Shown piece by piece: positions 23,019 to 35,566 of a DNA stretch of 37,549 nt. The DNA is from a candidate division WWE3 bacterium GW2011_GWC2_41_23 (lineage in GTDB: Bacteria; Patescibacteriota; WWE3; UBA101185; UBA10185). How positions within the stretch are numbered: the stretch's first letter is position 1; each line of letters starts with the position of its first letter. The DNA lies in assembly GCA_000996895.1 (NCBI GenBank), contig LCBB01000011.1:1-37549 (forward strand). The letters are read 5' to 3'. Under the pieces are notes generated by a model. It searched no databases. It saw only the letters and a program-made list of their open reading frames with translations, and was not told the origin of the DNA. The translations under genes and the position numbers were made by a program.

Positions 23019-23094
23019 GGGCCGTTAGCTTAGTTGGTAGAGCGCTTCCATGGCATGGAAGAGGTCAGGAGTTCGAATCTCCTACGGTCCACCA
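23019..23094 (+). tRNA. tRNA-Ala (anticodon GGC), CCA encoded
   Basis: Acceptor GGGCCGT/ACGGTCC, anticodon arm CTTCC-ATGGCAT-GGAAG, T-arm GTTCGAATC, 3' ACCA. Confidence 0.95.
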
Positions 23095-23243
23095 GGAAAT
23101 TTCGAAAGCGCCGCAGGTGCTTGCGAAATTTGCTTTGTGAGGGGGAGAGATTCGAATGCCGCAGCGAGCGAAGGCGAGTGAGGCGGGGTCGAGCGGATCG
23201 CCAGCAGACGATAACGCGTGACCGAATCTCCTACGGTCCACCA
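23095..23243 (+). mobile_element. 149-bp element inserted at the tRNA-Ala 3' end, ending in a duplicate of the tRNA 3' terminus
   Basis: CGAATCTCCTACGGTCCACCA (21 bp) at 23074-23094 and 23223-23243. The element starts with a hairpin and contains inverted GAGATTCGAA at 23147-23156. Confidence 0.65.
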
Positions 23244-23256
23244 ATACTAAATACAA

Positions 23257-23292
23257 AAAGAAATCCCCGCCGAGCGGGGGTTTCTTTTTTCA
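23257..23292. terminator. Bidirectional Rho-independent terminator
   Basis: AAAAAGAAATCCCCGC-CGAG-CGGGGGTTTCTTTTTT between convergent units. Confidence 0.85.
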
Positions 23293-23309
23293 AGGAGCAA
23301 GTCTCAGGT

Positions 23310-25553
23310 TTACTGTCCCTGTTTGGGTAACGTTCCCAGGTCAAGGTTCTGTGCGTTTATCTCTTGCTCGGTACCTGCTTTTACCAAAGGTTCCTGTTGT
23401 GCAGGACCTTGATTTTGTGAAGCGGTAATCTGTTCAACAGTTGGTTTAACCTGTCCTGTGGTGCCTGCTGCTTTGATTCTTTCGTCTACAGCTGCAATTT
23501 CTTTGTCCAGAAGTTTTGCATCTTCTGAATCAACGTCTACGAGAGTTTTCGTTACTTCGAACGCCTGTTTTGCACTTTGAAGATCGTTCAGCTGAATCAT
23601 AGCCTGTGCAAAGTTGTAGTAAGCGTTTGCGTAGTCAGGCTTAAGTGAGAAGGCCTGTCTGAATTGATTAGCTGCAGATAGGTAATCTTTCTGTGCATAG
23701 AACATTCCGCCCAGATCCAGTCTTAACCTTGGGTTTGTTGGGTCAAGTTGTATGGCTGTACTGTAGGCCGATACTGCCCACTCAGATGCGTTCTCCGCCA
23801 CATTCAAGATACTTCTGTATATCAATGCTCTGGTTTCCCAGTTAGCTGCACTCAGCGGGTTTATAGCCTCTGTGGTGACTCTGGTTGTGGTAATAGCTTC
23901 CGAGATTAAGCTCTGTATAGTTTGCTTTTCCGCATCTGTAAGATTTTCCTTACCGGCTAAGTTGTTAGCCAAGGCGAGGTCGGTTTGTGCGAAGGAGTTG
24001 TAGTACGAATCTCTGGTAGGATTAGCCGTGATGGCCAGTCTCTGATTCTCGTATACTTTTGCTCCGTCATTGTTAAGCAAGGCTATGACGGCTCTTCTCA
24101 TGTAGAACTCTCCCATATAATTCTTTCCCCAGAGGTAACCTCCGTAGATGACGGCAATAATTATGACTGCTCCGAAGATAAATTTGGAGTACTCCTTATT
24201 TATTGCAGAACTGTCTCCCAGCGAAGCAACTGCCTGGATGTCTTTCGCTCCCACCGAGCTGACTTGCGCTATTTTGCTGCGCTCATCAATGTATGTGTAT
24301 GCGGCTACCAGCAATGCAAGAAGTGTGAACAGCATAAACGTTGAAGTTACCGTAGCGTAAGTAAATAGGAATGAAGACATCAAAGCTACAAGTGAAAGAC
24401 TCAATACTTCCGTGAGTCCTTCCTGGCTGTCGGTGAATTTAGTTTGATTAGCAAGTCTCATCATTCTTGACCCCAAGAATATGGTGGCAAGAAGTCCTAA
24501 TATACCGATTGTGGCAATGATGTTGAATATTTCGTTGAAAGGAATATCAAATCTCACATTCCAGAATTCGGTTGCGTTAAGAGACATGGGTCTGAAACGG
24601 GTGAAGTTAGTTTGGAATGTTGAGGGACCCGTTGCCAGTAGAGGAAAGTTTTGAATTGTTGACGACGCAACGACCCAGCTTTCTCTTACAGGAAGACTAA
24701 GCTCCCTCGGGAAATTAGGATCCACGAGCACGTTTCGTGTTGCCGGAACTAAGAAAATAATTGCCATAGCTGCCGTTGTTCCGAGAATAGCGAGATAGTA
24801 GACGCCTTCTTTGAATACTTTTGACAGATCGACGTAAAAAACCATTCCGACTATACCGACCACAAGTAGTGCCCACGCGGCAAGCGAGCTGGTTAGGGCA
24901 ACGTATAAAATACTAAGGATGGTAGCTCCCACAAGCGCTATTTTTATCAACATATTCTTTTCGTAGGCGATAAGCACAAGCGCCATCACTATAGAAAGTG
25001 CTGCGAACAACGCTGTCTGTGTGGTACCCCCGTAAAAAGAGAAGTTTTGCAACTTCATGTATGCGGTTGAAGAGATAAATATGTTGAAGTAGCTCAAAAC
25101 GGATACGAAAGTGGCAATTCCGGTACCTATTAAGAAAGCGTAAATCGCTCCTTTTATAGCTCTGGGGTTTCTGTATAGGGGAGTAGCAATGTAGTAGTAG
25201 ATTACAAAGACTACTAATGAGAACAGTCCCAGCCACCTTCCCTGGCTTCCGAAAATGCTTACAGACTTATTCAATGAAAAGACCGTAGCTAGAGCATATA
25301 CGCCTGTGAATATTATTAGGGGAAAGTCTATGATGGACTTTGCAAGTTCTATCTTTTGACCCAGCATTAGTCTTACTGCCCAGAGTATCGCAAGCAATAT
25401 AGTGCCTAAGATGATTAGCGTGAGTTTGTTAAGTTCAAAAAACTCAGTTGTAATCGGCAGGAAAAAAATTGGTACTAAGAAAGGTAGTATGTAAAGCGGG
25501 ATAGCTTTAGACACTCCCTCGATTATGAAAGTTAAATTATTGTTTTGTTTCAT
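23310..25553 (-). CDS. O-antigen ligase-like polytopic membrane protein with TPR repeats
   Basis: About 10 TM segments, then TPR units (YSTAIQLDPTNPRLRLDLGGMFYAQKDYLSAANQFRQAFSLKPDYANAYYNFAQAMIQL). Start taken at 25553 (MKQNNNLTF) rather than the 25721 ORF start. Confidence 0.8.
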   Translation of the reverse strand: MKQNNNLTFIIEGVSKAIPLYILPFLVPIFFLPITTEFFELNKLTLIILGTILLAILWAVRLMLGQKIELAKSIIDFPLIIFTGVYALATVFSLNKSVSIFGSQGRWLGLFSLVVFVIYYYIATPLYRNPRAIKGAIYAFLIGTGIATFVSVLSYFNIFISSTAYMKLQNFSFYGGTTQTALFAALSIVMALVLIAYEKNMLIKIALVGATILSILYVALTSSLAAWALLVVGIVGMVFYVDLSKVFKEGVYYLAILGTTAAMAIIFLVPATRNVLVDPNFPRELSLPVRESWVVASSTIQNFPLLATGPSTFQTNFTRFRPMSLNATEFWNVRFDIPFNEIFNIIATIGILGLLATIFLGSRMMRLANQTKFTDSQEGLTEVLSLSLVALMSSFLFTYATVTSTFMLFTLLALLVAAYTYIDERSKIAQVSSVGAKDIQAVASLGDSSAINKEYSKFIFGAVIIIAVIYGGYLWGKNYMGEFYMRRAVIALLNNDGAKVYENQRLAITANPTRDSYYNSFAQTDLALANNLAGKENLTDAEKQTIQSLISEAITTTRVTTEAINPLSAANWETRALIYRSILNVAENASEWAVSAYSTAIQLDPTNPRLRLDLGGMFYAQKDYLSAANQFRQAFSLKPDYANAYYNFAQAMIQLNDLQSAKQAFEVTKTLVDVDSEDAKLLDKEIAAVDERIKAAGTTGQVKPTVEQITASQNQGPAQQEPLVKAGTEQEINAQNLDLGTLPKQGQ

Positions 25554-35341: not shown

Positions 35342-35431
35342 GGAGGGATCGCATAGTGGCCTAGTGCGGCAGTCTTGAAAACTGCTATGCTCGCAAGGGC
35401 ATCGTGGGTTCGACTCCCACTCCCTCCGCCA
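35342..35431 (+). tRNA. tRNA-Ser (anticodon TGA), CCA encoded
   Basis: Acceptor GGAGGGA/TCCCTCC, anticodon arm GCAGT-CTTGAAA-ACTGC, long variable arm, T-arm GTGGG-TTCGACT-CCCAC, GCCA end. Confidence 0.95.
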
Positions 35432-35566
35432 GGAATTTTCGACGGGCGCAGTCCCGGCGGAAATTACTTGAGGGAAGTTGGATCGTACCGCGAAGCAGGT
35501 TCGGCTGACTCAATTATGCGAGCATAGCGAGCAGAATTGCTTTGCGAAGCAAAACTCCCTCCGCCA
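35432..35566 (+). mobile_element. 135-bp element inserted at the tRNA-Ser 3' end, ending in a duplicate of the tRNA 3' terminus
   Basis: ACTCCCTCCGCCA at 35419-35431 and 35554-35566. Starts with the same hairpin architecture as the tRNA-Ala element; contains inverted GAGGGAaGTT and TGCGAGCATAGC. Confidence 0.65.

Follow-up and report, generated by a model that had tools for sequence, protein, structure and literature searches.

Gene-less folded units that end in copies of tRNA 3' ends in WWE3 and other Patescibacteria

Behind the tRNA-Ala(GGC) gene of a candidate division WWE3 bacterium lies a short folded unit that contains no gene and closes with an exact copy of the tRNA 3' end, and units of the same build are found behind many other tRNA genes in the Patescibacteria. 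We favour, as probably correct, the explanation that these units are non-autonomous, gene-less integrative mini-elements whose attachment sites are tRNA and tmRNA genes and whose folded-strand structure is under selection. The family is apparently undescribed, since no match to it was found in Rfam or in the literature searched.

The unit behind tRNA-Ala

The stretch of DNA analysed here, 37,549 bp in length, is called the window. Its features around the tRNA-Ala gene are as follows.

23019..23094, + strand: tRNA-Ala(GGC), host gene and candidate attachment site (ARAGORN; Rfam RF00005, 65.5 bits)
23074..23094, + strand: proximal repeat copy, tRNA positions 56-76, from the T-loop to CCA
23095..23133, + strand: 5' hairpin of the unit, immediately following CCA (fold, comparison of units)
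23144..23154, + strand: arm X' (guide), 5' strand of P1, complementary to the T-loop/T-stem strand with which the tRNA 3'-end copy begins (compensatory changes in P1)
23155..23223, + strand: conserved core, ending in GTGACC (covariance model R1, 92.3 bits here; covariation; consensus)
Order within the core, + strand: AAT(G), P2 (23158-23184), GG, P3 (23187-23223), AGCA loop (23203-23206)
23223..23243, + strand: distal copy of the tRNA-Ala 3' end, the start of which is the 3' strand of P1
23255..23290, + strand: terminator-like hairpin downstream of the unit (the scan reported it on the minus strand)

The last 21 nt of the tRNA gene (CGAATCTCCTACGGTCCACCA, 23074-23094) recur exactly at 23223-23243, as a preliminary description of this DNA had stated, and the insert thereby defined measures 149 bp. 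Since this is the only 21-mer repeated anywhere in the window, a chance repeat can be excluded. In nearly all copies the first base of the repeat (C56) is already contained in the invariant GTGACC of the unit itself, so that the duplicated part of the tRNA really consists of positions 57/58-76 (19-20 nt). Three other elements of the preliminary description, namely a strong hairpin at the start of the insert (23095-23133), an inverted T-arm fragment (GAGATTCGAA, 23147-23156) and the lack of a credible ORF, also held up on inspection. The sequence of the hairpin differs between units and its architecture is retained. The 149 bp contain neither an integrase gene nor a credible ORF; an ORF of 98 aa that crosses them (23034-23330) has its start codon within the tRNA and was rejected. 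Together, the tRNA and the insert fold with a z-score of -4.6, which none of 200 shuffles equalled, and the insert alone folds moderately (z -2.1). The terminator-like hairpin is kept in four congeners, with or without a unit before it.

A covarying core

Each unit consists of the 5' hairpin, the arm X', a three-way-junction core and the copy X of tRNA positions 57-76, in this order, and is about 115-190 bp long without any gene. Six units could be folded into a common three-way junction made of P1 (X' with the start of X), AAUG, P2, GG, P3 with its AGCA loop, and GUGACC. In the six founder units double changes were observed in 13 of the 24 pairs, and 93.8% of cells pair, compared with 74.6% in shuffles; among 75 distinct matches the double changes extend to 22 of the 24 pairs, and in neither set did any shuffle reach these counts of double changes. 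The arm follows the tRNA: the copy behind Gln-CTG has CAAATCC in place of CGAATCC, matched by a change of the arm to GGATTTG. G-U outnumbers A-C in paired columns by 111 to 33, from which it follows that the folding strand is the sense strand, the one that carries the tRNA, although such a wobble-pair bias fits RNA and single-stranded DNA alike and cannot tell them apart. Rfam 15 gave no match inside the units, either at the gathering threshold in the window or at E<=1 in the six unit loci.

Units at other tRNA genes and in other genomes

A BLAST search of the insert against its own genome (G000, 837 kb in 18 contigs) returned related stretches only beside other tRNA genes. Units of the same build lie behind Arg-TCG, Gln-CTG, Pro-TGG, Ser-GGA and Leu-TAA (two in tandem), and the terminal copy of every one of them is the 3' end of that unit's own tRNA; covariance model R1 finds seven units behind six tRNA genes. 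The preliminary description had made its case depend on similar duplications at other tRNA genes, and with five more in the same genome these are decisively present.

Across the phylum, at a threshold of E<=1e-5, R1 matched 46 of the 380 Patescibacteria genomes sampled, belonging to 38 of 313 genera, and matches named as Berkelbacteria, Paceibacterota, Kaiserbacteria and Nomurabacteria attest to a phylum-wide spread. The relatives in the dataset include CP006914.1 (WWE3 RAAC2, a complete chromosome) and MEVX01 (WWE3 RIFOXYB1). Thirteen of the 57 nearest relatives carry R1 units, with 0 to 20 copies per genome and a patchy occurrence even inside one genus. These nearest relatives yielded 77 distinct loci, 57 of which have a tRNA gene on the same strand at most 330 nt upstream; an exact 21-nt repeat was present in 44 of these tRNA-linked loci and a 19-nt repeat in five. 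The host tRNAs represent 29 isoacceptor types, and tmRNA is used as well. In a few distant lineages (L334, L309, L182, L230) the arrangement is mirrored: a displaced 5' tRNA fragment houses the unit, and the intact tRNA follows downstream. Displaced 5' fragments are known for a minority of islands (PMC4383910). Two matches, L067 and L077 (G034), are likely to be spurious or highly divergent.

A loose pattern scan of genome contigs matched many high-GC genomes by chance, and among those pattern loci that were rescored with the covariance model good scores were seen in Patescibacteria only. Viral contigs also gave pattern matches, yet none above 15.7 bits with the model, and the matches in phage records were to tRNA genes only.

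Turnover and constraint among congeners

Occupancy was tabulated from the stretches read behind tRNA genes in four congeneric WWE3 (Katanobacteria), the present genome G000 and G001-G003. At the orthologous tRNA-Ala(GGC), a comparison that the preliminary description had proposed, G000 and G002 carry the unit described above, G001 has an unrelated folded unit in its place, and the site in G003 is empty. Gln-CTG and Pro-TGG are occupied solely in G000 (in G002 a Gln-ended unit pair lies further downstream, behind genes), Arg-TCG is occupied in G000 and G002, and Gly-CCC has 0, 0, 2 and 1 units in G000, G001, G002 and G003, respectively. Many other tRNAs show the same turnover of presence and absence, as well as tandem copies.

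Within G002 the cores behind Arg-TCG, Gly-CCC and tmRNA are nearly identical, and their arms and copies are specific to each RNA gene, which implies either that units moved and renewed their arms or that gene conversion affected the core alone. Cores at orthologous sites are 94-98% identical (63/67, 64/69, 65/68 and 67/69) with few or no gaps, compared with about 65-75% identity and many gaps in most right flanks. The orthologous 5' hairpins drift in sequence and keep their shape, and the Arg-GCG unit differs between G002 and G003 by compensatory changes in P2. Such conserved cores amid diverged flanks may reflect selection on the folded core in situ, a recent arrival, or conversion.

Other inserts and islands at tRNA ends

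The window contains a second occupied tRNA gene, with a unit of another kind.

35342..35431, + strand: tRNA-Ser(TGA)
35432..35566, + strand: type-2 unit behind tRNA-Ser(TGA), with a different core and the same X'/X logic

The distal copy of this unit (ACTCCCTCCGCCA, 35554-35566) repeats 35419-35431, and in the genome as a whole type-2 units lie behind Ser-CGA and Ser-TGA. Type 2 constitutes a second family of folded units, with a GCGAAGC..GGTTCG core, apparently unrelated to the first (type 1); its hosts in the congeners are Ser-CGA, Ala-GGC, Ala-CGC, Glu-CTC, Glu-TTC and Cys-GCA, and at Ser-GGA of G001 a type-2 unit splits the distal copy of a type-1 unit. All four congeners (L013, L377, L361, L389) also have a mini-unit of 63-68 nt behind tRNA-Val(TAC), in tandem in G003. 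It duplicates the part of the tRNA that starts in the anticodon loop and ends with CCA, and it contains a GGATG arm and a CTGCGAAGCAG hairpin. The breakpoints of the repeats fall in tRNA loops: the T-loop, the anticodon loop (Val unit) or the D-loop (L182). Type-1 repeats start at 56/57, type-2 repeats near the T-loop/T-stem. The T-loop and the anticodon loop are known attachment sub-sites in tRNA genes (PMC4383910).

Two further kinds of small insert were observed. In some units (L310 and L314, in G298 and G358) a palindrome, CCTGCCTGCCGGCAGGCAGG, within the distal tRNA copy forms a tiny hairpin insert nested in the unit. Small cassettes with genes such as NUDIX and histidine phosphatase-like ones, placed behind tRNA-Ser genes, each end in a conserved sequence of ~35 nt resembling AAAAAAGTTCCAAGTGCGTCCCACACCCTCCGCCA; they occur behind tRNA-Ser(GCT) in G000:C7 (L408, L431), in G001 (L384, from 6273), in G003 (L351, reverse complement, from 4294) and in G004, G006, G007 and G012 (L403-L406). 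By analogy, they may be seen as an integron-like array anchored on the tRNA end, with no integrase inside.

Units with no tRNA within 330 nt were at first taken for ectopic insertions at CCA-ended sites of 5-11 nt. This reading was dropped because, in a longer context, at least five of them turned out to be separated from their tRNA by a wedged-in gene island (tRNA-Pro of G010, tRNA-His and tRNA-Gly of G026, tRNA-Gln of G002 and tRNA-Pro of G025), each island ending with 6-8 nt of the tRNA end, followed by the unit. The islands at tRNA-Pro of G010 and tRNA-His of G026 encode large serine recombinases (PF00239, PF07508, PF13408) and share the tRNA end with the units, but lie beside them, not around them. 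The recombinase genes at these two places (G010:C6 and G026:C1; L430, L435) encode 542-557 aa and are convergent on the tRNA, the gene of which their 3' ends overlap; the adjoining islands measure about 4-7 kb. With islands and units at the same tRNA ends, the tRNA 3' end emerges as a shared docking site. Outside the set explained by islands are the orphans L064, L103, L107 and L108, the first of which has a partial second unit behind its copy. A separate case is G026:C2 (L433), where, behind tRNA-Gly(CCC), a reverse transcriptase gene is bracketed by two Gly-ended units with duplicated flanks of ~200 bp.

Candidate mobilising enzymes

Two candidates for a general partner of the units were rejected because unit-rich genomes lack them: Y1 transposase (PF01797) is absent from G000-G003, G010, G026 and G028, and reverse transcriptase (RVT_1, PF00078) is absent from the unit-bearing genomes G001, G002, G010, G012, G014 and G022. 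Tyrosine recombinases (PF00589) are present everywhere and hence uninformative. G000 has two of them, both Xer-like and with counterparts in most close relatives, with or without units; neither scores as an integron integrase (IntI), as both fall far below the TIGR02249 cut-off and match XerC/XerD best. A gene for a Xer-like recombinase of 291 aa lies convergent near tRNA-Ile(TAT) in G000 (C10:8717) and at the matching places in G001-G003, and is possibly a domesticated integrase. No circular form or autonomous copy of a unit was found in the genomes searched.

Discussion

The structure, the site specificity, the duplication, the turnover, the empty site, the tandem copies and the lack of coding capacity are observed. 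We infer the following route, in which the circular or folded-strand intermediate, the recombination chemistry and the kind of enzyme are all conjectural. The unit, as a circle or a single strand that includes X, would recombine with a tRNA gene at the 3' portion identical to X. As in islands integrated at tRNA genes, one copy of X would then complete the tRNA, making the insertion harmless, and the other would mark the far end. The unit could be lost again by recombination or slippage between these copies. Selection would preserve the sense-strand fold, that is P1 (X' with X) capped by the core, which suggests a recombinase that acts on a folded single strand, or propagation through such a strand (ssDNA, like attC, or RNA). 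The enzyme would act in trans, and the series X, hairpin, X', core, X would form a dumbbell when circular. Among the counterpoints, simple recombination does not explain how a unit obtains an X' that fits a new tRNA, and core identities of 94-98% amid diverged flanks suit a resident function as well as a recent insertion.

The preliminary description had offered two explanations, a very small non-autonomous element mobilised in trans and a structured continuation of the tRNA transcript that offers a possible second acceptor strand. Both survive in part, and they are not mutually exclusive. The empty site, the replacement, the tandems, the patchiness and the lack of genes speak for the element, for which no mobilising enzyme was established; the anatomy, namely the position before a terminator-like hairpin, the covariation and the predicted fold, speaks for the extension.

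One may consider, as a serious rival with a limited though real chance of being right, that the insert is a functional non-coding RNA domain on the tRNA transcript, which switches the tRNA 3' end between the proximal and the distal copy. It would be transcribed together with the tRNA, between it and the terminator, X' would pair with either copy and thus control tRNA maturation or provide a spare 3' end, and the domain would be kept by selection and homogenised by gene conversion. The strong covariation, the wobble pairs biased to the sense strand, the place upstream of a conserved terminator-like hairpin and orthologous cores far better conserved than their flanks are all consistent with this. 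So is the predicted full-length fold: for 39 of the 40 units it is the distal copy that closes the acceptor stem, with an advantage of as much as about 9 kcal/mol, an outcome that would suit propagation at the RNA level too. This preference follows largely and automatically from geometry, since X' is complementary to X together with the 3' trailer. Moreover, such a domain is absent from most Patescibacteria and from most tRNAs, its carrier tRNAs change between congeners, unrelated cores replace each other at one site, and the proximal copy alone already gives a complete tRNA.

It is rather doubtful that the units operate at the RNA level, like a SINE or an intron, with the unit RNA being copied back or spliced at tRNA loops. 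They would then be selfish elements, a new small ribozyme or an RNA-copied parasite inserting at tRNA loops, and this proposal has the attraction that snap-back copying of the target would make X' anew, explaining why each unit matches its own tRNA. On this rather doubtful account an element that brought its own replacement tRNA 3' end would be harmless and would have its complementary arm rebuilt for every new tRNA. A core common to different tRNA loci with tRNA-specific X' and X, breakpoints in tRNA loops, an orientation fixed with the tRNA and the partial second unit of orphan L064 agree with it; gene conversion between units can also give shared cores, however, Rfam contains no ribozyme or intron that matches, and RVT_1 is missing from the unit-bearing genomes listed above.

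Quite improbable is the view that the units are remnants, i.e. scars (attL/attR) of kb-sized tRNA islands that were stripped of their genes. Islands do occupy the same tRNA ends here, some with large serine recombinases, but they sit between tRNA and unit rather than inside the unit, and random deletion would not be expected to leave a shared core of 65-70 nt, near-constant in length and with compensatory changes, at ~29 tRNA types. An artefact of assembly or alignment, or a chance repeat, has nothing in its favour and practically no probability, since an exact and unique 21-nt repeat is involved and the arrangement recurs in many independent genomes, including the complete chromosome CP006914.1.

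Returning to integrative mini-elements, the units can be compared with several known systems. MITEs and the REP-type elements of IS200/IS605 Y1 transposases are short, non-autonomous, palindromic and multicopy. The units are likewise short and gene-less, occur in multiple copies and have empty orthologous sites, but no Y1 gene is present in the four congeners, insertion is restricted to tRNA genes, and the target copy differs between units. Integron cassettes are small units mobilised in trans that form arrays at a fixed end, with a site, attC, conserved in fold rather than in sequence. Here the analogy is structural only, as tRNA genes take the place of attI and there is no cassette gene.

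The islands in tRNA and tmRNA genes catalogued by Islander resemble the units in their intact tRNA with a displaced 3' (rarely 5') fragment at the far end, in a crossover in the T-loop or anticodon loop, and in tandem arrays (PMC4383910). These islands contain an integrase and many genes, with size peaks at 13.6 and 39.9 kb (PMC4383910), in contrast to gene-less units of about 115-190 bp that have a covarying folded core; the units thus share the intact tRNA, the displaced fragment and the loop crossover, but have no internal integrase. The ssrA islands of Dehalococcoides are similar in being tandem elements with 20-bp repeats of an RNA-gene 3' end that start in the T-loop, and in a short conserved motif adjoining the repeat (PMC3146451). 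A serine recombinase of about 540 aa is found at their left edge, and members without an integrase are thought to be mobilised in cis; they differ in having a single target, ssrA, in being kb-sized and in bearing genes, and the portion of their description consulted mentions no structured core or target-complementary arm (PMC3146451). The units are best filed as tRNA-integrated mobile elements, extreme in their size and in their conserved fold.

tRNA genes are classic docking sites of bacterial islands, the known residents of which are kilobases long and bring an integrase, and to our knowledge the mobile elements of Patescibacteria are almost uncharted. If the explanation favoured here is true, the units would be among the smallest tRNA-integrated elements known, ~150 bp in length, phylum-wide and specialised on dozens of tRNAs. 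The tRNA transcripts of unit-bearing hosts would have to be read anew, with spare 3' ends and competing folds in mind, and the units would make it possible to test concretely if a folded site anchored on a tRNA can serve as the substrate of a recombinase or of an RNA process.
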